Of a stretch of 64,000 nucleotides of DNA, positions 19,956 through 31,760 are shown piece by piece. The first letter of the stretch is position 1. The number at the start of each line of letters is the position of its first letter. A program made the translations under genes and the position numbers. This DNA is from Capsulimonas corticalis (GTDB lineage: Bacteria; Armatimonadota; Armatimonadia; Armatimonadales; Capsulimonadaceae): assembly GCF_003574315.2 (NCBI RefSeq), contig NZ_AP025739.1, positions 2,666,001-2,730,000 on the forward strand, in the 5' to 3' direction. The notes below the pieces were generated by a model. That model saw only the letters and a program-made list of their open reading frames with translations. It was not told where the DNA came from and searched no databases.

Positions 19956-19996
19956 TACGGTTCAGACTCACATGTCGTGAGCCGCTCTCGGCGCTC

Positions 19997-20044
19997 AAAG
20001 GGCGCTGCTGTTCTTGAAAGACCAGCAGCGCCCTTTGTGTTTTT
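19997..20044 (+). terminator. Rho-independent terminator of pgk
   Basis: A 14-base perfect stem (AAAGGGCGCTGCTG and its complement) with a 12-base loop is followed by GTGTTTTTT. Confidence 0.93.
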
Positions 20045-20180
20045 TGCTGATCCGAACAAGCGGCTGCAACCAAACCCGCCCCCTCCGTGTCTCATGGTTT
20101 GAGCGCTTCTGAGAGTTCTGGCGACAAAGCGATTATGCTTCCGCCCGCGCGACGACAGAGCGAAGCATTGAGGGGGATCG

Positions 20181-20981
20181 ATGAGCATGGCGAATGGCGA
20201 TGGGAGTGAGATCTCGTCCCGAAGAGTGAATTATGGCTGGATCGGCGAATCCTGGGGATTGCTGGGGCAGGCGGCGAGTCCGTGGATCATGTCTCAGCTG
20301 CTCTACGGCGTCTTGGTGTTTCTGTTGTCGCTGGCGCTGAATGTCCTGTGTTTTGGTGTTCCGCCGCTCAATCTCGCGGGCTTTTCGCGATGGGCGGACC
20401 ACCAAACGCCGGTCTCCAACACGGCGTCCTATGCGCTGAGTTTCGCGTTCAATGTCTTTCAATCATCGGCGTACTACGCGATGGCGGTGAAGCAAGTGCG
20501 CGGCGAGCAGGTCTCTTTCCACGACGCGTTTCGCGGCGGGGAAGGATTCTGGCGTATGGCGGGCGCCGTCCTGCTGATCGGCGTGCTGAGCCTGCTGGGC
20601 GTGGCGGGATTGGTAATCGGCGTGTTTTTCGTCGCCGGTCTGCTGCTGCCCGCATGGGCGATGGTCGCCGATGGCGAAAGTCCCACCGAGGCGATTACGC
20701 GGTCAATTCGGGCGATGAAGGGCGATTGGCTCAAAGCCGGCCTCTTCTGTCTGCTGTTTACCGCGCTGATGGGAGCGAGCGCGCTGCTCTGTGGTCTGGG
20801 CCTGCTCGCGACCACGCCGATGCTTTATCTCGTCTCGGCGCTCGCGTATCGGGACATGGCGGGCATGCCGATACTCACGACGCAGCCTTTCGAATATGGC
20901 GCGGGGCAGCCCGGCGTCTGGCCTCCTCCTCCGCAGGCGACGCGGCCGCCGGACGAGCCGACTTGGGGCGCCGGACAATAA
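20181..20981 (+). CDS. Membrane protein of a four-gene paralog array, member 1
   Basis: The 266-residue protein begins with a cytoplasmic RRVNYGWIGESWGLL motif. About six hydrophobic helices follow, two of which flank a conserved AVKQVRGEQVSFHDAFRGG loop. The last helix runs into LAYRDMAGMP and then a Pro-rich tail (QPGVWPPPPQ). The same motifs recur in the next three genes. The fold is reminiscent of DUF975/DUF4013-like or GDPD-type membrane domains, but I do not recognise a characterised family. GAGGGGG precedes the ATG. Confidence 0.75.
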   Translation: MSMANGDGSEISSRRVNYGWIGESWGLLGQAASPWIMSQLLYGVLVFLLSLALNVLCFGVPPLNLAGFSRWADHQTPVSNTASYALSFAFNVFQSSAYYAMAVKQVRGEQVSFHDAFRGGEGFWRMAGAVLLIGVLSLLGVAGLVIGVFFVAGLLLPAWAMVADGESPTEAITRSIRAMKGDWLKAGLFCLLFTALMGASALLCGLGLLATTPMLYLVSALAYRDMAGMPILTTQPFEYGAGQPGVWPPPPQATRPPDEPTWGAGQ

Positions 20982-21041
20982 TTGAGAGCCAACGGGCGTA
21001 ATTTTGGGGATATTGATCGTGATTGAGAGTGGAGGATAAGA

Positions 21042-22070
21042 ATGAGCGTACCCATGGGCGGCGGTTACGCCGCGCCCCGCCGTGTGAATTATGGATGGAT
21101 CGGAGAATCGTGGCAGTTGTTCACGCAGGCGGCCGGAGCGTGGATTCTCCTGCTCCTGGCGAACGTCGTTGTCAGCTTGATCATTAGTTTTGGGCTTCAG
21201 GCGATGTTTCCCAACACTAATTATACGCCGCCTACTCCCGGCGCGTCGCCGTGGCAGGTGATGGCGACCAGCCAAAAAATGTCTTCCTTGGGGCAGTTTC
21301 TGTCGTATGTGATTAGCTGGCTGACTGGCGGCTTTTTCGCCGCTTGCTTCTACGGACTTGCGGTGAAGCAGGTTCGCGGTCAGGCGGTCGGCGTCGGCGA
21401 CGCTTTTGGCGGTGGTCCGTACTATGGGCAGATGCTGCTGGCGACGCTGGTGCTGGGGCTTCTGGCGGGCGGCGGCGCTCTGGTCTTTTGTCTTGGCTTT
21501 TTTGTTGTACTAGGCCTGATGCTGCCCATGCAGGCGATGGTCGCCGACGGCGTTCCCGCAATGGAGGCGATTTCACGAAGTTTCGAAGCGATGAAGGCCG
21601 ATTGGCTGAGCGCCGCTTTGTTCTACATTGTCATGTTCCTGCTGATCCTCGTGAGCGCTATTCCGTGCGGCCTTGGCCTGCTCGCCACCGCTCCGATGAC
21701 TTACCTCATCGCCGCGCTTGCGTATCGCGATATGGTCGGAATGCCGGGGGCGAATAGCGGCTTTACGCCGAACTACGGCGCGCCGCAGCCGGGCGTGTGG
21801 CCGCCGCCGCCGGGAGCGGGGAACGCCCCTCCCTACGGCGGGCAGCCGGGGAATTATCCGCAGGGCGGTCAGCCGGGAGCGTGGCCCCCTCCGCAAGGCG
21901 GTCAGCCCGGAGCTTGGCCTCCGCCGCAGGGCGGGCCTCAGTTTGGTCAGCCGCCTCAGGGCGGTCCCCAGTTTGGGCAGCCGCCTTCGTCGCCGGGAGC
22001 TCAGCCGCCGGGCCAGTGGCTCGGCGGCTCGCCGCCTGACGATCCCAATCGCCCGCAGGGCGGCGCATAG
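21042..22070 (+). CDS. Membrane protein of a four-gene paralog array, member 2
   Basis: The 342-residue paralog shares RRVNYGWIGESWQLF, AVKQVRGQAVGVGDAFGGG, EAMKADWLSA and LAYRDMVGMP with member 1. Its roughly 110-residue tail is highly repetitive: QPGVWPPPPGAGNA, repeated GGQPGAWPPPQ units and repeated GGPQFGQPP units, ending PPDDPNRPQGGA. Such Pro/Gly/Gln tails are usually disordered and may bind partners or span a wall-like layer. GGAGGA precedes the ATG. It lies 60 bases after member 1. Confidence 0.75.
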   Translation: MSVPMGGGYAAPRRVNYGWIGESWQLFTQAAGAWILLLLANVVVSLIISFGLQAMFPNTNYTPPTPGASPWQVMATSQKMSSLGQFLSYVISWLTGGFFAACFYGLAVKQVRGQAVGVGDAFGGGPYYGQMLLATLVLGLLAGGGALVFCLGFFVVLGLMLPMQAMVADGVPAMEAISRSFEAMKADWLSAALFYIVMFLLILVSAIPCGLGLLATAPMTYLIAALAYRDMVGMPGANSGFTPNYGAPQPGVWPPPPGAGNAPPYGGQPGNYPQGGQPGAWPPPQGGQPGAWPPPQGGPQFGQPPQGGPQFGQPPSSPGAQPPGQWLGGSPPDDPNRPQGGA

Positions 22071-22148
22071 TGTTCTGACGGATCGGGAAACGGCGTGTCC
22101 GGCGCGACGTCGATCGGACACGCCATCTTTGAGAATGGGAGGGCATAT

Positions 22149-23225
22149 ATGAGCGTACCAGAGGGAAGGAGTTATCAATCAACTCCCGAGGTTAGTCTGG
22201 ACTGGATCTCAAAGGCGTGGTCTCTGTTTACTCAACGGGCGACATCGTGGATCGGAACAATGTTTCTATTCGCTGTCGCGGTCTGGGTCTTGGAGCTGAT
22301 CATCATCGTTCCGACGGGGCTTCTCGGAGCTATGCAGAACAGCGCTGCTCGTTCCAATCCCGGATCAATGGGACCATGGGCGATCTTTTCATTACTGGCG
22401 CCCGCGCAACTTGGAGTGTTCTTTCTCTTGGGTATCGCGCTGAGTGGCGGGATGTACATCGTTTTGGGTGGAATTCTCAAAATGGCGCTAAAACAGGTTC
22501 GCGGTGAAGAGATTGCCCTGGCCGATATTTTATCGGTCGGAGATGTCGCGATGCCGCTGTTTGTTTCTGGTTTGATCATTTCTATTGTAGGATCTCTCGC
22601 CATGCAGGTATTCGTGCTGCCGGGGATCGTGGTTTATGCCCTGCTCATGTTTACGCCGCTACTAATCGTCGACCAGAAGCTCGGAGCAATCGACGCCATT
22701 AAAGCCAGTGTGGACATGCTCAAGTCTCAATGGTTGATGGCCAGCGTTTTCTTTTTTGTTTCGTATTTGGTTGCGTGCCTCGGAGCGATCTTATGCGGCA
22801 TTGGGATGCTGGCGACGTTCCCTGTGTTTTTGATTTCCATTGCCTACGGGTACTGGACATTCACCGGCTCGACGATGTCTGTGGCGGGACAGCCGAATTA
22901 CGGCGTTGCGCAGCCGGGCGTGTGGCCTCCTCCGCCCGGCGCGGGGAATGCGGCTTCGTTTGGTCAGACGGGCGCCGGCCCGGCTTTTGGGCAGACCCCA
23001 AGCGCGCCGGCGTCGACGCCGGATCAGACGGGCGCCTGGCCGCCTGCGCAGCCGGCTCCGGAGCCTCCGCAGCAGCAGCCGGGAGCCTGGCCGCCCACGC
23101 AAAGCGGCGCGCCGGCTGAGCCTCCGGCGGCTCCGTCGCCGTCCGAGTGGCCCGCGCAGACCACGCCTCCGCCGTTTGGGCAGACGCCGCCCGAAGATCC
23201 GAACCGTCCGCTGGGCGGCTCCTAG
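22149..23225 (+). CDS. Membrane protein of a four-gene paralog array, member 3
   Basis: The 358-residue paralog begins MSVPEGR with GGGAGGG upstream; an earlier in-frame start is not supported. It keeps SLDWISKAWSLF near the N-terminus, ALKQVRGEEIALADIL in the middle loop and about six membrane helices. The final AYRDM motif has changed (IAYGYWTFTG), so this copy has diverged most. Its Pro-rich tail repeats the family motif QPGVWPPPPGAGNA and ends PPEDPNRPLGGS, close to member 2. Function is unknown. Confidence 0.75.
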   Translation: MSVPEGRSYQSTPEVSLDWISKAWSLFTQRATSWIGTMFLFAVAVWVLELIIIVPTGLLGAMQNSAARSNPGSMGPWAIFSLLAPAQLGVFFLLGIALSGGMYIVLGGILKMALKQVRGEEIALADILSVGDVAMPLFVSGLIISIVGSLAMQVFVLPGIVVYALLMFTPLLIVDQKLGAIDAIKASVDMLKSQWLMASVFFFVSYLVACLGAILCGIGMLATFPVFLISIAYGYWTFTGSTMSVAGQPNYGVAQPGVWPPPPGAGNAASFGQTGAGPAFGQTPSAPASTPDQTGAWPPAQPAPEPPQQQPGAWPPTQSGAPAEPPAAPSPSEWPAQTTPPPFGQTPPEDPNRPLGGS

Positions 23226-23395
23226 CCACAACGATCGCACATTTATTCGGCCGGCGGCGCGAAGGGCCCGCCGGCCACGCTGCGTTACCCACGAGAAACT
23301 GTCGTCCGCCGCTTCTTCCATGGGAGGAGTCGCTTGCTTGCTTGGTGAATAATTCTTTGGTCATCACTCTTCGTTGTCCAATGGAGGATCGGTCC

Positions 23396-24262
23396 ATGAG
23401 CACGGGTTATATCGGCGCGGGTGGGCGCCATCCGCATAAAGTGAGTTTCGATTGGCTTGGCGAGGCCTGGAAGCTGTTTGCGTCCAGCGCGCCGGTGTGG
23501 ATCGCCGCGATTATCGTCGCGGTGTATGCTCCTCTGTGCATCGATGCGTTCGTAGTGGGCGCCATCAGTGTATCGCAGAAGATCGCCGGTTCCGGCGCCG
23601 GTGGCGCGGTTCAGGCACTGATGCATATGGGCGGGCTGACGTTCGGACTTGGCCTGCTGAACGCGGCCTATTCGGCGTTTGTGCTGGGCGGTCTTGCGCA
23701 GATGGCGCTCAAGCAGGTGCGCGGCGAGCCTGTCTCGTTCCGGGACATTTTCTCCGGAGGGCCGTCGTTCGGGCGGATGCTAGTCTTCGGCATCGTCGCC
23801 TCTCTGATGATCGGCGTCGCTTCCGGCTTCATCTTGCTGCCGGGCGTTTTCCTCGCCGGACTGCTGCTGCCGTCACTGGCGCTCACGGCGGCGGGCGCGC
23901 CGCTGAGCGACTCCATTTCGCTCAGCGTGAAAGCGATGTGGCCCGATCGGGCGATCGCGATGGGGTTGGCGTTTGTGCTGGGCGTGCTGACGGTGATCGG
24001 CTCCGGCTTCTTCACCATCGGTCTGCTGGCGGCGCTGCCGCTGTGGTTCCTGGTGTCCGCGCTGGCGTATCGCGATATGATCGGCTTCCCGGAGACGGAA
24101 GTCTCCCTGGACGATATTTTAGGAACCGTGGAGCCGGGGCGCGGCGTATACCTGGGTGGCGACGCTCCGTTTGGCTATTCGCCGGGGCAGACGCCGCAAA
24201 ATTCATTGAACGGCGAGCCGCTCGATAACGGCGTGGATTCGTCCGCGCCGCCGAAACCATGA
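23396..24262 (+). CDS. Membrane protein of a four-gene paralog array, member 4
   Basis: The 288-residue paralog keeps SFDWLGEAWKLF, ALKQVRGEPVSFRDIFSGG, SVKAMWPDRAIA and LAYRDMIGFP but lacks the Pro-rich repeats. Its tail is acidic and neutral (SLDDILGTVEPGRG...). GGAGGA lies 7 bases before the chosen ATG, and the much longer in-frame start upstream would overlap the preceding gene. Its stop overlaps the ATG of the next small membrane protein by four bases. Confidence 0.75.
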   Translation: MSTGYIGAGGRHPHKVSFDWLGEAWKLFASSAPVWIAAIIVAVYAPLCIDAFVVGAISVSQKIAGSGAGGAVQALMHMGGLTFGLGLLNAAYSAFVLGGLAQMALKQVRGEPVSFRDIFSGGPSFGRMLVFGIVASLMIGVASGFILLPGVFLAGLLLPSLALTAAGAPLSDSISLSVKAMWPDRAIAMGLAFVLGVLTVIGSGFFTIGLLAALPLWFLVSALAYRDMIGFPETEVSLDDILGTVEPGRGVYLGGDAPFGYSPGQTPQNSLNGEPLDNGVDSSAPPKP

Positions 24263-24609
24263 AATCTTCCATAAAGCAAATCGCCGTTGTTGTCTGCGCC
24301 GTCGTCATCGCCGGCGCGGCGCTGCTGAAAATCTATGCTCTCGCGCTGATCGTAGGGATCGTCGCGGGAGCATATCTTTTGGTCGCCGGGATGTCGAGCG
24401 GCGGATCGCTGGGCAACGCGCGACGGTACGGGCAGACGCCCGCCGATAACTCCACCCGCATTGGCGTGGGGCTCGCCGCCGCCGGAATCGCCGCCGCTTC
24501 GATCGGCCAGCCCCACTTTCCCCTGTCGTTTCGCGTGTTTTACGGCCTGTGTCTCGTCGCCGGCTGCGTCCTCGCAATTGTACTGGCTTTTCTCCCCGCG
24601 AAAAAATAG
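24259..24609 (+). CDS. Small membrane protein translationally coupled to the paralog array
   Basis: The 116-residue protein has four hydrophobic stretches (about 8-22, 27-45, 68-84 and 93-113) separated by a polar loop (GNARRYGQTPADNSTR). It starts inside the end of the preceding gene (ATGA overlap), so the two are very likely translated together. No family was recognised. Its position suggests a role in the same membrane complex as the array. Confidence 0.7.
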   Translation: MKSSIKQIAVVVCAVVIAGAALLKIYALALIVGIVAGAYLLVAGMSSGGSLGNARRYGQTPADNSTRIGVGLAAAGIAAASIGQPHFPLSFRVFYGLCLVAGCVLAIVLAFLPAKK

Positions 24610-24696: not shown

Positions 24697-25674
24697 ATGA
24701 TTATGTGCATTATGAAAAGCGTTATTGGACCGATTTCGACGCAAAAGGCTTATTTATTCTCTCCTATTCTCGTCGCGCTGACCACCTGGCTATTATTTGT
24801 CGCGCAGCGTTATACCATGGAAGCGGAAGGGGCTCCCTACATTCGCCCATACGCAATCGTTTTCGTTCTTCCGATCGCACTATTAACTCTTCTGGGCGGG
24901 CGCGGCCCGGGAGTCCTGACCCTGATCAGCGCCTGCCTTTCTCTGATCTACATCGTGTGCGAGCCCCACTTTTCGTGGCGTGTCAGCCACCATCGGGATT
25001 GGGTGGAGATGCTGCTGCTGCTGCTGATCGGCGCGATCCTGATCTATGCGCTGGAATCGGTGCGGCAAAACGGATATCTGCTCGCGGACGCCGCCGAGGC
25101 GCGCAGCCGGCTGGACGCCAGCGAGGAGCGGCGGCTGGCGTTTAACCGCGAGGTGCTGCTGGCGGTGACGGGCGGGCGTCTGCTGCTCTGCGGCGAGGAG
25201 GAGCTGCGCGGAATGGTGAGCGGCGAGCCGGAGCTGCGCGCGTCGCTCGGCAGCGCCGCCGACGCGGCCCATCTGCGCGGGGATCTCAGGACTCATCTCG
25301 AAGCCCAGGGGATGGCGAATCGGGTGCGCACCGACGATCTGATGACCTGCGTGATGGAGGCGGCGACCAACGCCGTGAAATACGGGCGCGGCGGCGAAGC
25401 CGCCTTCTGGACCGCCGAAGACCATGTCGCCGTCCTGATCACGGATCGCGGCGACGGCATTCAGCCGTCCGACCTCGCCCGCGCCACCCTGGAAAGCGGC
25501 TACTCCACCCGCGCCACCCTCGGCATGGGGTACACCCTGATGCTGCAAACGGCGGACCTGCTGGCGCTGTGCACCTCGGACGCCGGCACTTCCCTCTTGA
25601 TACGCGTCGGCAACCAGCCGCTGCAAACGGCGCAGGACGAATTCCTCGCGCGCTATACATCGATCGCCGCCTGA
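24697..25674 (+). CDS. Membrane-anchored HATPase protein (DUF4118-like sensor, anti-sigma/histidine-kinase-like)
   Basis: The 325-residue protein has an N-terminal membrane region of about four helices (residues 17-125) resembling the KdpD-type DUF4118 domain. A linker and a C-terminal GHKL ATPase domain follow. ATPase motifs are CVMEAATNAVKYG (N box), ITDRGDGI (G1) and TLGMGYTLMLQTAD (G2). No phospho-accepting H box is visible, so it resembles RsbW-type serine kinases or anti-sigma factors more than an autophosphorylating histidine kinase. Three in-frame ATGs (24697, 24703, 24712) are possible. It is not followed by a response regulator. Confidence 0.75.
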   Translation: MIMCIMKSVIGPISTQKAYLFSPILVALTTWLLFVAQRYTMEAEGAPYIRPYAIVFVLPIALLTLLGGRGPGVLTLISACLSLIYIVCEPHFSWRVSHHRDWVEMLLLLLIGAILIYALESVRQNGYLLADAAEARSRLDASEERRLAFNREVLLAVTGGRLLLCGEEELRGMVSGEPELRASLGSAADAAHLRGDLRTHLEAQGMANRVRTDDLMTCVMEAATNAVKYGRGGEAAFWTAEDHVAVLITDRGDGIQPSDLARATLESGYSTRATLGMGYTLMLQTADLLALCTSDAGTSLLIRVGNQPLQTAQDEFLARYTSIAA

Positions 25675-25689
25675 CGAAAACTGTTCCCA

Positions 25690-26304
25690 TCAGCGTTTGG
25701 AGGCGCCTGCGAGTCCATCCCAGGCGGACATCGCACAGTCCGCAACATCGGTCAACGTCGCGCGGGAGTCTCCATCGCGGGCCTGAATGGAGAGGCCATG
25801 CAAAACCGTGGTATAGAATGACGTCATGGCGCTCACGTTGGCGCTTGCGGGGACATCACCCTCGGCGATCCCGCGCTCCAGTCGCTCCCGAATGATGTCT
25901 TGCGTTCGGCGGCGCAGCACTAAGAGATGCTCTTGAGCGCCCTTGCTCGCGGGGGAGCAGTTCATCGTTCCCAGCACAATTAAGCACCCTGGCGGCGAAG
26001 ATCCGTCCGTGAAAAGCTGGACCGCGTCCCGCAGTATCGTTGCAATCGCCGCGCGCGCGGTCGGCTGCTCGGCGATCGCGCGCGCCGTTCCCGATCCCAC
26101 TCCCGTCTGATACAGCGCCACTGCTTCCTGGAACAGCGCTTCCTTGGAACCGAACGCGGCGTAAAAGCTGGGCGCGTTGATTCCGATGGCGCCGGTCAAT
26201 TCCGACAGGGAAGCGCTCTCGTACCCAAGCCGCCAAAATACTTCCATTGCCTGCTGAAGCGCCGCATCACGATTGAATTCTCGCGGTCTCCCTCGCTGTC
26301 CCAT
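25690..26304 (-). CDS. TetR/AcrR-family regulator of the divergent MFS exporter
   Basis: The protein is 204 residues from the chosen ATG (MGQRGRPREF); an ATG seven codons upstream is an alternative. The N-terminal helix-turn-helix includes ALQQAMEVFWRLGYESASLSELTGAIGINAPSFYAAFGSKEALFQ-type sequence, typical of TetR. The C-terminal helical domain carries PPGCLIVLGTMNCSP, seen in the C-terminal TetR_C_16-like group. It is divergent from the MFS gene with a long palindrome between them, the standard arrangement of a drug-responsive repressor and its pump. Confidence 0.9.
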   Translation of the reverse strand: MGQRGRPREFNRDAALQQAMEVFWRLGYESASLSELTGAIGINAPSFYAAFGSKEALFQEAVALYQTGVGSGTARAIAEQPTARAAIATILRDAVQLFTDGSSPPGCLIVLGTMNCSPASKGAQEHLLVLRRRTQDIIRERLERGIAEGDVPASANVSAMTSFYTTVLHGLSIQARDGDSRATLTDVADCAMSAWDGLAGASKR

Positions 26305-26355
26305 TGTCTTTTCCCATCTTTCCATTGTGATTTTTATATCGAGTGCTACAAAAAT

Positions 26356-26387
26356 AAATCATACCCGAAAAATCTCAGGTATTATTT
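26356..26387. promoter_or_regulatory. TetR-type operator palindrome between regulator and exporter
   Basis: Arms of 13 bases (26356-26368 and 26375-26387; AAATCATACCCGA and TCAGGTATTATTT) match as an inverted repeat at 11 of 13 positions around a 6-base centre. A TATAGT -10-like element for the exporter begins two bases after the right arm, so binding would block that promoter. Confidence 0.65.
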
Positions 26388-26425
26388 CTATAGTGATTGA
26401 TACAGAAATTGGAGGGAAGTGTTTT

Positions 26426-27997
26426 ATGAAGAAACAAGATCGTGTCACAAATCCGGTTTCTGTTCACGGCGCGGCGGATCGCGTCGTAGTTTTGGGAGCG
26501 GTGTGTCTGGCGGGGTTGGTGCTGCCCCTGAGTTTTGCGGGCGCCGCCGTGGCGACGCCCGCCATTGGCCGAGAACTGGGGGGAAGTCCCACGGCGCTGA
26601 ACTGGATCGTCAACGCCTTCATGCTGAGTTTTGGCAGTACGCTGATGGCGGCGGGCGCATTGGCCGATGAGTACGGTCGCCGGAGAATATTCGCCATCGG
26701 TGTCGCGCTGTTCGCGGCGATCTCGCTGGCGATCGGCTTTGCCCCCAACGTGGTTTGGCTTGATTTTCTGCGCGCGGGTCAGGGGACCGCCGCCGCCGCA
26801 ACGCTGGCCGGGGGGGCGGCGGCGCTCGCTCAGGAGTTTTCCGGTTCCGCGCGGACGCGCGCTTATAGTCTTCTCGGCGCGACGTTTGGCGCGGGGCTGG
26901 CGTTTGGACCGGTGCTCGCGGGCTTTTTGATCCACGCTTTCGGCTGGCGCTCCATCTTTTTAACTGGCGTCGTGATCGGAGCCGTCGCCTTGATCTTCGG
27001 TGTTCCGCTCATGCGGGAGTCGCGCGATCCGGACGCCGCCGGTTTGGATGCGCCGGGCGCGGCGGCCTTTACCGGCTTTCTCTCGCTTCTCATTTGCGGA
27101 GTTTTGCAAGCGCCGTCGAGCGGATGGGGAAGTCCCGCAGTCACCGCATTTTTTATGGGCTCGGCGCTGATGCTGGCGTTGTTTATCGTGGCGGAGCGCC
27201 GCTCCCCTCGTCCGATGCTGGATCTCTCGCTGTTCCGATATCCGCTGTTTTTGGGCGTGCAGGTTCTGCCTCTCGCCACTGCTTTTTGCTACGTAGTGCT
27301 GTTAGTCTTGCTCCCAGTTCGATTGATTGGCGTTGAGGGACGCAACGAGGTCGAGGCGGGTGCGATAATGATCTCGCTGTCCACGCCGCTGCTGGCTGCG
27401 CCTCTCTGGGCCTGGCTGCTGGCTCAGCGCTTCTCGGCGGGCGCCGTGTCAGGAACAGGATTATTAATTGCATCGGCCGGCTTGGTTTGGCTGAGTCATG
27501 TCGGACCGGGGAGCCCCGGCGGCGCGCTCATACTTCCCATGCTGCTGATCGGCGTGGGGGCGAGCATTCCGTGGGGGCTAATGGATGGACTTTCCATTAG
27601 CGTTGTTCCCAGGGAAAGGGCAGGCATGGCGACGGGGATCTTCAGCACGACGCGCATCGCCGGCGAGGCCGTCATGATCGCGCTCGTTGCGGCTCTGATG
27701 GCGACTTTGACACAGGCGCAATTGGGAGGAGCCTTTTCGGGGGATTCGCCGGAGCATATTGCGCGCGCCGCGCAGTATATCGCCGCCGGAGATCTGACGC
27801 ACGCCGCGCGCTTTCTCCCAGCTGTCAGTCACACGCGTCTCGTCCAGGTTTACGGCAATGCGTTTCGGGTTCTCATCCTTCTTCTGGCGGCGGCCACATT
27901 CGCCTCGGCTCTGACTGTGTTTGCGTTTCTTGGGCGCGTGCGCGCGCCCGCCGAGCCCAAGTCCGAGGAAGCGCCGGAACTGGCGGCGCGTGCCTAG
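26426..27997 (+). CDS. MFS transporter, DHA2 (14-helix) drug efflux type
   Basis: The 523-residue integral membrane protein has the DHA2 features. SFAGAAVATPAIGRELGGS forms helix 1, NWIVNAFMLSFGSTLMAAGALADEYGRRRIF carries motif A (ADEYGRRR) between helices 2 and 3, and motif C-like glycines (GATFGAGLAFGPVLAGFL) follow in helix 5. About 14 hydrophobic segments can be counted. It would export small toxic compounds by proton antiport. GGAGGGAAG precedes the ATG; longer in-frame starts overlap the operator. Control by the divergent TetR is inferred. Confidence 0.92.
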   Translation: MKKQDRVTNPVSVHGAADRVVVLGAVCLAGLVLPLSFAGAAVATPAIGRELGGSPTALNWIVNAFMLSFGSTLMAAGALADEYGRRRIFAIGVALFAAISLAIGFAPNVVWLDFLRAGQGTAAAATLAGGAAALAQEFSGSARTRAYSLLGATFGAGLAFGPVLAGFLIHAFGWRSIFLTGVVIGAVALIFGVPLMRESRDPDAAGLDAPGAAAFTGFLSLLICGVLQAPSSGWGSPAVTAFFMGSALMLALFIVAERRSPRPMLDLSLFRYPLFLGVQVLPLATAFCYVVLLVLLPVRLIGVEGRNEVEAGAIMISLSTPLLAAPLWAWLLAQRFSAGAVSGTGLLIASAGLVWLSHVGPGSPGGALILPMLLIGVGASIPWGLMDGLSISVVPRERAGMATGIFSTTRIAGEAVMIALVAALMATLTQAQLGGAFSGDSPEHIARAAQYIAAGDLTHAARFLPAVSHTRLVQVYGNAFRVLILLLAAATFASALTVFAFLGRVRAPAEPKSEEAPELAARA

Positions 27998-28084: not shown

Positions 28085-29557
28085 ATGAATCTGCTGATAG
28101 GCGCGAAAACGGATCTCGGTAAACGAGCCAACAACGAAGATTTTTATGCGGTCGTGGATGTACAGCAGAGCCACCTGCGCGCCGACGGAGTGCTGATTGT
28201 CGCGGACGGCATGGGCGGGCGCAACTTTGGCGAAACGGCCTCCACGGCGGCGGTGGAAGCGGTCGCGGAGACGCTGGTGGATCTGCTCGACGCACAGCGC
28301 GGCGACCGGGTCCATGTCGAGGACGCGCTGGATTCGGCCCTGCGCAAGGCGAACGCGCGGGTCTATGAGCTGTCGCGCGAAGGCGAGCACGCCGAGGGCA
28401 TGGGGACGACATGTGTCGCCGCCGTGATCGAGGGCGGCCGGCTGTTTATCGGCCATGCGGGCGACAGCCGCGCGTACGTCATCCGAAACCACAAGCTGGA
28501 GCAACTGACCAACGACCACTCCTATGTGGCCGAGCAGGTGCGCGCCGGCGTGATCTCTGAGGAAAGCGCGCGCAAGTCCCGCTTCCGAAATGTCATCACG
28601 CGCGCCGTGGGCATCGAGCCGGCGATCTCGCCGGATGTTGTGGGCTACCCCCTGGATGGGATCGACGCCGTGCTGATCTGCACCGACGGCCTGACCGGGC
28701 CGGTGCGCGATCCGGACATCGAGCGGATCCTTCTGGCGGCCCCGAGCGCGCAGATCGCCGCCGACAAGCTTGTGGGACTGGCGAAGAACAACGGCGGCAG
28801 CGACAACATTACCGCGGTCGTTGTCCGTTTTTCCGAAGGGGCGATCGCGCCGGACACCGTCATGCCTGAGGTCGACGATCAGAACGATTTTCTCAACACG
28901 CGCAAATGGAGTCCTCCGAGCTCGCCGCGTCCCGTGGGACAATCGATCCTCGTGGGCCTGCTCCTGCTGTTTCTGTGCAGTACGATCTATCTCGTCAGCG
29001 TCGCCAATGAGGCGGGATATGAGTGGCGCTTCGGCGTTCCTCCGCTGGTGAAGCCCGATCCGCCGCCCGTCCATGTCCGCGATTTCCAGCATCTGAGCTA
29101 CGGCGCGCCGGAGACGTTTTACGAAACTTCCGTCCGCAGCGGCCCGCTGACGCATAGCGAGGCGGACGACACGATCACAGCGGTGACGCAGGAAGGCGAC
29201 ATCGTCACGCTGGCGACGGACGGCAAGACGAGCTATAAATTCCCGCTGTCGGACGGCGCCGCCCCCGCCACGGCCGAAGGCGAGACCCCCCGGAAGGCTC
29301 CGGCGGAAGGAAATGTCCACTTCGCCGTCGACTCTCAGGGAAACCTGTATGTTTCCGACGCCGCAGCGCACAGCATCGTCAAGTTCAAGTCCTCGGGCGA
29401 GAAGATCGGTCCCATCGCGAAGGGACAGCTCAAGAACCCCGAAGCGATCGCCGTTTCCGATGACGGCACGGTTTACGTTGTTGACGGCGGACACTTGATG
29501 GCGATCCATCCCGCCAAGTCCGCCGCGTCCGGCGGCTCTGTGACGGAAACCCCATGA
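28085..29557 (+). CDS. PP2C-family Ser/Thr phosphatase with transmembrane helix and extracytoplasmic NHL-like region
   Basis: The 490-residue protein starts with a PP2C domain (about 1-255). Metal-binding motifs are NNEDF (16-20), ADGMGG (40-45), HAGDSRAY, ICTDGLTG and GGSDNITAVVV. A transmembrane helix (about 285-305) is followed by an outside region ending in NHL/propeller-like strands (FAVDSQGNLYVSDAAAHSIVKF, PEAIAVSDDGTVYVVDGG). It probably reverses phosphorylation by the adjacent kinase, eight bases downstream, while the outer domain senses or anchors. This topology is less usual than the soluble Stp-type phosphatase. Confidence 0.9.
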   Translation: MNLLIGAKTDLGKRANNEDFYAVVDVQQSHLRADGVLIVADGMGGRNFGETASTAAVEAVAETLVDLLDAQRGDRVHVEDALDSALRKANARVYELSREGEHAEGMGTTCVAAVIEGGRLFIGHAGDSRAYVIRNHKLEQLTNDHSYVAEQVRAGVISEESARKSRFRNVITRAVGIEPAISPDVVGYPLDGIDAVLICTDGLTGPVRDPDIERILLAAPSAQIAADKLVGLAKNNGGSDNITAVVVRFSEGAIAPDTVMPEVDDQNDFLNTRKWSPPSSPRPVGQSILVGLLLLFLCSTIYLVSVANEAGYEWRFGVPPLVKPDPPPVHVRDFQHLSYGAPETFYETSVRSGPLTHSEADDTITAVTQEGDIVTLATDGKTSYKFPLSDGAAPATAEGETPRKAPAEGNVHFAVDSQGNLYVSDAAAHSIVKFKSSGEKIGPIAKGQLKNPEAIAVSDDGTVYVVDGGHLMAIHPAKSAASGGSVTETP

Positions 29558-29564
29558 GCCGCTG

Positions 29565-31760
29565 ATGTCTCTCGGAATGCTTGGAAAATATGAACGCCTG
29601 GATGTGCTGGGGCATGGGGCGTCGGGAATCGTCTACCTCGCCAAGGATACGCTCCTGGGCAAACTGGTCGCGATCAAGCACATCGCCGCGCAGGGCGAGG
29701 ACCGCGATCGGTTCCTTGAAGAAGCGCGCGTGCTGGATCGTCTGCGCCACCCGAACATCGTCCAGGTGAACAGCGTCGACTTGATCGACGGCAAAGTCGT
29801 GCTGGACATGGAGTATGTCTCCGGCAGCAATCTCCAGGACGTCCTGCGCCGCACCCCGCAGCTGCCCGTGGCCGACGCCGTCGGCATCGCCGCGCAGATT
29901 TGCGACGGCCTCGCCTTCGCCCACGCCAACCGCACCGTCCACCGCGACGTCAAGCCCGCCAACATCATCATCTCCCACGACGGCGAGGTCAAGCTCGTCG
30001 ACTTCGGCCTGGCCGAAGTCCTCGGCACTAACTCCTTCGCCGGCGGCGCCGGCACCTACGCCTATATGGCGCCCGAGGATTTCCACGCCGAGGAGCTTTC
30101 GGACCGCCAGTCCGATATCTGGGCGGCGGGCGTCATCCTTTACGAGATGCTCGCAGGGCGTCGGCCCTTCCGGGTCGCGCGCCCGAAAGATCCCTTCGCC
30201 TGGAAGCGCGCCGTGGATGAAGATCCGTACGCGCCGATTCCACAGGAGCGTCCCGAAGTCCCCGAGGCGCTGGACCGGATCGCCGCCAAAGCCCTGGCCC
30301 GCGACAAGGGCGAGCGCTACGCCGACGCCGCCGAGATGGCCCGCGATCTGCGCGCGCTCGGCCTCGCCGCCACGCGCTCGGCGCTGGCTGAGGATCTGTC
30401 CGCCACGTCCTTCGCCGACGCGCCTCACGACGGGGAAGAGCCCACCATCGCCGCGATCGATTTCCGCGCGGGCCGCCTGGAGCAGGCATGGGAAGAGAAC
30501 GAGGAAGCGCCGACCGTCGCCGCCGGCGCGCTTCCCGGATTCCCCTTTCTCCCGGATATCGACGCCTTCCTGGCGCTGGCGCCCGAGCAGTGGGACGCCG
30601 CCCGCGCCGCCCTGCGTAGCGGGGATCTCGCCCGCTGGCTGCGCTCCGTCGGCGAGGACCCGCTTGCCGCGACCGCCGATGAGATTTCCCGCGACCTTGC
30701 CCGCGATCCCGATGACGCCCTGCGCGACTTCCTCTACCGCTCCGGCCTGGACACCTCCACGGAGGCGCGAAACGGCTTTGAAGAAGGAAGCCGCCGGATC
30801 AAAGAAGGGCAGTTCGCCGAGGCCGCCGGCCTGCTGCGCCGCTCCACGCGTCTGGACCCCAGCCGCCCCGCCGCCTATGAGCGGCTTGCGCACGCCCTGC
30901 GCACGCAGGGCGACGCGTCCGGCGCGCTGCAAGTTTTGGAAGAAGCCGTGACGCGTCACCCCGGCGACCGGACGCTTTCGCGGGAGCTGACGAGCCAGGC
31001 GGGGGCGCGGCTGACGCTGAGCACGCAAACGGTGAGCTTCGGCGTGATGCGCAAGGGCGAAAAGCGGACGCAGCGCGTCTCGCTGCGCAACGCCGGAACC
31101 GGCGTCGTCCAGGGCCGTGTCGGCGCCGCGCCAGGCTGGGTGGAGATCGAGCCGCGCACCTTCACCACGCGCCAGCGCCAGCAGCTTTTGTTTACCGCGC
31201 AAACCGACAACGTGTGGCAGACGCCCGCCGAATACCGCGAGACGGTCGTTCTTGAAACCAGCGCCGGTCGCCACGAGATCGTCGTTCAGGCGACGGTGCT
31301 GCCTGCCCGCCTCGGCTTCGCCCAGATCTTCTACTGGTACATCCCCGTTCTGATCTGCGCCCTGTTGCCGCTGCTCGCCGGCCTTGCCGCCCCGCACACC
31401 TTCGCGCCCGGCGTCCGCCACCTGTGGGAGCCCGGCGCGGTCGCCAGCGGCCTGCTCTGCGGCTCTTTGTTCGTGCTCGCGACCGCCGCCGACACCGTTG
31501 GGAAGTATCGCTTGATCCCATTATTACTGCTCTCGCTGAGCATTCTCGGCGCCACGGCGATCGGCCGGGGTTTGGGCAGCTACGAAGACCACGCCGCGCG
31601 CGAAATGCTCGTCCGCGCCACGCCGCCGATTTTGATCGTCTTGGTCATGCAGGCCGCCATCCAGGCCCGCGACCCGCGCGGCTGGGGCCGCTGGCCGATC
31701 TGGGCGTTCATCATCTGCGCCCTGGGCGCGGCGGTGGCTTATGTGATTGGGCATGGGTAG
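29565..31760 (+). CDS. Membrane Ser/Thr protein kinase with TPR-like, Ig-like and multi-helix C-terminus
   Basis: The 731-residue protein has a complete Hanks-type kinase domain (about 9-275): glycine loop GHGASGIVY (16-24), Lys38 in VAIKHI, HRDVKPAN (127-134), DFGLAE (146-151) and MAPE (168-171). An acidic linker follows, then TPR-like helices (about 400-475). A bacterial Ig-like segment comes next (SFGVMRKGEKRTQRVSLRNA, about 490-580), and about five membrane helices complete the C-terminus. Unlike PknB, the membrane part is C-terminal and polytopic. The upstream phosphatase makes a kinase-phosphatase pair on one transcript. Confidence 0.92.
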   Translation: MSLGMLGKYERLDVLGHGASGIVYLAKDTLLGKLVAIKHIAAQGEDRDRFLEEARVLDRLRHPNIVQVNSVDLIDGKVVLDMEYVSGSNLQDVLRRTPQLPVADAVGIAAQICDGLAFAHANRTVHRDVKPANIIISHDGEVKLVDFGLAEVLGTNSFAGGAGTYAYMAPEDFHAEELSDRQSDIWAAGVILYEMLAGRRPFRVARPKDPFAWKRAVDEDPYAPIPQERPEVPEALDRIAAKALARDKGERYADAAEMARDLRALGLAATRSALAEDLSATSFADAPHDGEEPTIAAIDFRAGRLEQAWEENEEAPTVAAGALPGFPFLPDIDAFLALAPEQWDAARAALRSGDLARWLRSVGEDPLAATADEISRDLARDPDDALRDFLYRSGLDTSTEARNGFEEGSRRIKEGQFAEAAGLLRRSTRLDPSRPAAYERLAHALRTQGDASGALQVLEEAVTRHPGDRTLSRELTSQAGARLTLSTQTVSFGVMRKGEKRTQRVSLRNAGTGVVQGRVGAAPGWVEIEPRTFTTRQRQQLLFTAQTDNVWQTPAEYRETVVLETSAGRHEIVVQATVLPARLGFAQIFYWYIPVLICALLPLLAGLAAPHTFAPGVRHLWEPGAVASGLLCGSLFVLATAADTVGKYRLIPLLLLSLSILGATAIGRGLGSYEDHAAREMLVRATPPILIVLVMQAAIQARDPRGWGRWPIWAFIICALGAAVAYVIGHG

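Follow-up and report, generated by a model that had tools for sequence, protein, structure and literature searches.

A tandem array of YciC-like membrane proteins in Capsulimonas and a family-wide GVWPPPP tag that suggests an intracellular docking signal

The membrane proteins grouped as YciC/UPF0259 (PF06790), GPDPase_memb (PF10110), DUF7847 (PF25231), DUF975 (PF06161) and BPSS1780 (NF041043) belong to a widespread, uncharacterised superfamily; in literature searches, the matches listed for UPF0259 and GPDPase_memb said nothing about function. Small modules such as DUF2510, GYF_2 and zinc ribbons are common to unrelated bacterial membrane proteins. Short proline-rich ligands are described in eukaryotes, where EVH1 and WW ligands of the FPPPP/WPPPP type place an aromatic residue before four prolines, and studies of FBP21 WW domains and of EVH1 domains mention WPPPP peptides. 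A further comparison concerns fold: the solved structure of CysZ is a hexamer made up of antiparallel dimers (PMC5967866), and the resemblance of PNS1 to CysZ has been noted in work arguing that the CTL fold is non-transporting (PMC13160678).

The window analysed here, a stretch of 64,000 nucleotides from the single-contig, 7.6-Mb genome of the soil bacterium Capsulimonas, holds four neighbouring duplicated membrane-protein genes, m1 to m4, followed by the small gene m5 (Table 1). The cores of m1–m4 share 27–45% pairwise identity (82–181 bits; E <= 1e-22), far above the best score of 36.6 bits reached in shuffled-sequence comparisons (n=200). This bears out the proposal of the first-pass annotation that four tandem paralogues are coupled to a fifth small membrane gene, the coupling of m4 and m5 being an ATGA overlap, although two starts had to be corrected: m3 begins at the conserved ATG 22149 (the listed ORF begins at GTG 22095), and m4 begins at 23396, the mechanical ORF from 23147 being over-long. 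The signatures named in that annotation are likewise present, namely the W-(I/L)-(G/S)-(E/K)-(A/S)-W start and the KQVRG loop in all four proteins, AYRDM-x-G in m1, m2 and m4 with divergence in m3, and QPGVWPPPP in m1, m2 and m3. Gaps of 60, 78 and 170 nt within the array, together with the m4/m5 overlap, fit a single transcript from which m1–m5 are probably made, and m1 is set apart from pgk upstream by a strong terminator. Against their sister-species orthologues, m1, m2, m4 and m5 have omega of about 0.2, which indicates purifying selection; these are therefore real genes.

Table 1. Features of the array and its conserved neighbourhood (positions in the window).
Feature	Positions	Strand	Remarks
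Intrinsic terminator between pgk and array	19996..20052	+	RNA hairpin -32.1 kcal/mol, z -7.0, then T run
m1, membrane protein with predicted YciC/CysZ-like fold, one tail tag	20181..20981	+	266 aa
GVWPPPP tag in m1	20913..20933	+	
m2, paralogue, three tag-like repeats in tail	21042..22070	+	342 aa
GVWPPPP tag in m2	21792..21812	+	two more QPGAWPPPQ copies downstream
m3, diverged paralogue, Pro-rich tail	22149..23225	+	358 aa
GVWPPPP tag in m3	22917..22937	+	
m4, paralogue without tag	23396..24262	+	288 aa
m5, four-helix membrane protein, coupled to m4	24259..24609	+	116 aa; ATGA overlap with m4
PP2C-family phosphatase with NHL repeats, in conserved block	28085..29557	+	
Ser/Thr protein kinase with TPR repeats, in conserved block	29565..31760	+	

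The duplication is old. In the tree, m1, m2 and m4 each pair with one gene of the sister species (genome G001, ranked in the same genus as the window genome, G000) and m3 falls with copies of another genus; the array is therefore older than the genus. Tandem duplication with divergence of the tails, as first supposed, is right. The gene order array, m5, PP2C and Ser/Thr kinase is kept in G001, G003 and G004; pgk lies beside the array in G000, G002 and G006, and m5 is present in four genomes of the family. As for the array in relatives, shorter linked arrays exist in other genera of the phylum, and many relatives outside the family are single-copy, most genomes with a match there having one or two copies, some of them linked. 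A heteromeric complex of the array proteins, also proposed in the first-pass annotation, is possible. Between m5 and the PP2C gene, the window (24697-27997) holds DUF4118/HATPase (sensor-type ATPase), TetR-like and MFS-like genes, none of which stands there in the sister species. In f6, another family of the phylum, a DUF2752 protein follows the array gene (L049, L054), and groES/groEL-like genes lie near some f5 and f6 loci (L054, L055, L056). Elsewhere in the window's genome, a distant UPF0259-like protein adjoins a DUF4129 protein (L007, G000:C1:5589461).

The array proteins had been taken as not described, which stands for this subgroup only: judged from its sequence, the core of m1–m4 is no new family and lies in the uncharacterised superfamily of YciC/UPF0259, GPDPase_memb, DUF7847 and DUF975. 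The profile searches gave a divided outcome, in that the window proteins all fall below the curated cut-offs (UPF0259 20.7 against 31.4; DUF7847 18.1 against 28.7; BPSS1780 23.8 against 90), whereas remote homology to the superfamily is significant for the family as a whole, with E down to 5e-8 among 33 Armatimonadota relatives. Among these, GPDPase_memb matched 11 (best 5e-7), UPF0259 nine, DUF7847 five (best 5e-8), and DUF975 and DUF7544 four each; an hhalign comparison with E. coli YciC gave 93% over 97 columns. The array thus shares with the YciC superfamily a six-helix hydrophobic core and weak but recurrent profile matches, and differs from it in its four tandem genes, its tagged Pro-rich tails, its m5 partner and its PP2C/kinase neighbours. 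Sequence profiles returned no relative of solved structure for the core.

An AlphaFold2 model of m2, built from 12 sequences, has 181 residues at pLDDT >= 90; its six-helix core is confident and its tail disordered. Submitted to Foldseek and VIA-align 2, this model matched CysZ with Z scores of 14.3 and 13.8 and CTL1 and PNS1 at about 11.7, the next row falling to 4.0; the CysZ alignment at Z 14.3 covers 203 residues and displays the six-helix tripod fold, on a predicted model. As modelled, the core would resemble CysZ (EI24 family; PDB 3TX3, 6D9Z) and CTL1/PNS1 in its short helices, in its three helix pairs and in the placing of both termini on one side. No sequence relation to E. coli CysZ was detected by hhalign (probability 0.2%), so that CysZ membership by sequence is not supported, and an EI24 match was obtained in one of the 33 relatives, at 0.0012. 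Unlike CysZ, the array lies among pgk, PP2C and kinase genes, with no sulfur genes nearby. The fold search with m5 gave no useful match.

Clusters of K/R residues recur in all four paralogues at the N-terminus, in the KQVRG loop, in an AISRSxxxMK segment and at the end of the last helix. Read by the positive-inside rule, they suggest that m1–m4 most likely share one orientation with the N- and C-termini and the KQVRG loop facing the cytosol; an automated K/R count gave an ambiguous orientation for several array members.

The Pro-rich tail, first regarded as a feature of the array, proved to be more widespread, its core motif being common to many membrane proteins that are unrelated but come from one bacterial family. 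QPGVWPPPP exemplifies a broader motif, G(V/A/I/S)WPPPP, borne by about 20 unrelated proteins across the seven genomes of a GTDB family (f1) that we take to be Capsulimonadaceae. Pattern searches of sequence, each with a reversed-motif control, underlie the following figures. Among nine genomes searched for G-x-W-P-P-P-P, the sites numbered 14 in G000, 9 in G001, 20 in G004 and 10 in G006, with 0 or 1 reversed control each. Across the phylum, G(V/A)WPPPP has 39 sites against 0 reversed controls in the seven family genomes, and the 284 remaining genomes yield 40 against 33, which is background; with valine alone, the hand count is about 31 against 5. Two family sites are in a frame that is probably not coding, and some sites come from contig ends or from short ORFs in MAGs. 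In G005, also of this family, G(V/A)WPPPP is absent and only two looser sites occur. The array is the richest carrier, with three copies or near-copies in each of m2 and m3 and seven in one array member of the sister species.

Outside the array, the tag is found terminally on numerous small membrane proteins of unrelated kinds (...KGVWPPPPRIGG, ...EGVWPPPPRIGG, ...EEGVWPPPPRR, ...QEGVWPPPPTTGRDE, ...TGVWPPPPSGQIFWS) and also at the N-terminus of DUF4328 proteins. Both Capsulimonas genomes possess a tandem DUF4328-type pair with N-terminal GVWPPPP (G000:C1:740086 and 740812, L104; G001:C542, L112). A transmembrane segment was predicted in 37 of the 39 collected tagged ORFs, by hydropathy in place of a topology predictor. 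When the representatives are taken as independent (one pair is weakly related, which leaves about 20 kinds), 19 of 21 have a predicted transmembrane segment, against a background that the same crude rule puts at 44% (P about 1e-5); in 13 of 21 the tag lies within 12 residues of a terminus, where 4.1 would be expected (P about 8e-6). Most short tagged proteins bear juxtamembrane K/R residues on the tagged side, beside the last helix, which supports a cytosolic position of the tag. Taken together, the presence of one tag on unrelated membrane proteins suggests an undescribed intracellular docking signal.

In Pfam and NCBIfam, no model, and hence none for a known bacterial terminal sorting tag of the PEP-CTERM type, covered the motif in the tagged proteins scanned; a literature search for it returned only WW and EVH1 ligand work plus unrelated papers. 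The likeness to those ligands, an aromatic residue followed by PPPP, is one of form only, the family having no WW domain above cut-off, so that a WW reader was set aside. GYF_2 was ruled out as a universal reader as well, being found in two of the seven family genomes (weakly in G000, and in G001) and absent from the other five. The initial candidate for a reader had been a protein of the window's genome that has a transmembrane segment and a weak likeness to GYF_2 (L062, 1474-2358). Like the DUF2510, GYF_2 and zinc-ribbon modules, the tag is short, hydrophilic and carried by DUF4328 and other small membrane proteins; unlike them, it is a heptapeptide only, occurs in one family and in most cases lies no more than a dozen residues from a terminus. 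Tails of other clades have motifs of their own: in the sister family f2, array orthologues (L052, L051, L059) carry a conserved (M/I)PLPP shortly after the last helix, and array tails of f6 end in PPP(P)I(A/P)xP, as does, with APPPIANP, an unrelated zinc-ribbon-like ORF (L189, G060:C202), which hints at another clade-specific tag. A search for PPPI(A/P)xP as such a second tag gave array matches and one convincing unrelated protein only, and no generalisation is claimed.

Several other accounts of the motif and of the array deserve consideration. Among 35 copies of the tag DNA, 33 differ, third codon positions vary freely and between unrelated genes the flanks have 29% identity, near the chance level; selection therefore acts on the peptide. 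These observations largely refute, and make very improbable, the idea that the tags descend from a DNA repeat that entered many genes in frame, an idea that could otherwise appeal to the same heptapeptide in many unrelated genes and to DNA tandem repeats in some array tails (33 and 30 nt in that of m2). The motif might instead be a convergent low-complexity habit of a high-GC lineage, accompanying an ordinary family expansion with no common tag function. GC is indeed about 61% in the sampled loci, and Pro-rich tails are common in high-GC genomes. We nevertheless find this explanation unlikely, in view of the reversed control of the same composition (0 against 39), of the lack of excess in other families of the phylum, and of orthologous pairs from the two Capsulimonas genomes (DUF4328, Clp_N and others) in which the tag is kept.

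Polyproline ribosome pausing is established, and the four prolines of a tag placed at the end of small membrane proteins could slow the ribosome in an EF-P-dependent manner and so time membrane insertion or expression. A pure proline pause would have no need of the conserved G-(V/A)-W context, the reversed order shows no excess, and N-terminal and C-terminal tags would pause translation at different stages, all of which makes a role in translation or insertion decidedly improbable. The remaining proposal bears on the array itself: by analogy with the CysZ sulfate permease, m1–m4 might be duplicated YciC-like transport or channel subunits assembled as a hetero-oligomer, the Pro-rich tails being incidental flexible linkers. 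It draws on how strongly the predicted fold matches that of CysZ, whose antiparallel dimers form a hexamer (PMC5967866). It is made doubtful by the hhalign result and the lack of sulfur genes described above, by the same fold in CTL1/PNS1, argued to be non-transporting (PMC13160678), and by K/R positions that suggest one orientation for all four proteins and hence do not indicate a CysZ-like antiparallel pair, while the recurrence of the motif on unrelated proteins speaks against incidental linkers.

The explanation that we prefer, plausible though short of an even chance as a whole, is that of six-helix paralogues with a CysZ-like fold whose tails bear a cytosolic docking tag, the array forming a multivalent platform. 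The disordered tails of m1–m3 would extend into the cytosol and present the W-PPPP segment, and G(V/A/I/S)WPPPP would dock on a shared hypothetical reader. With one to three tags per protein, and up to seven in the sister species, the array would gather this reader and other tagged proteins at the membrane, possibly under the control of the neighbouring PP2C/kinase pair. That m4, in the same array, has no tag stands against the docking reading, and so does the lack of a fitting reader among GYF_2 and WW domains. The tail of m4 is acidic, and the sister species conserves it. In its most general form, which we put forward tentatively and as a possibility, GVWPPPP would be, in Capsulimonadaceae, a dedicated cytosolic docking tag on dozens of unrelated membrane proteins, read by a hypothetical, undescribed bacterial polyproline-binding domain, with the YciC-like array as a multivalent hub.

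Taken alone, the array is of moderate interest, as an expansion within an uncharacterised superfamily. What adds to this interest is the family-wide tag, which is specific and testable and was found neither in the literature nor in the family libraries searched. GVWPPPP provides a concrete peptide for fishing out the reader, and the tag links the uncharacterised, widespread YciC/GPDPase_memb superfamily with a PP2C/kinase pair and with a network of partners that can be tested. If true, the sharing of a short linear motif at the termini of unrelated integral membrane proteins within one bacterial family would be a rare counterpart, in bacteria, of the polyproline docking networks of eukaryotes.
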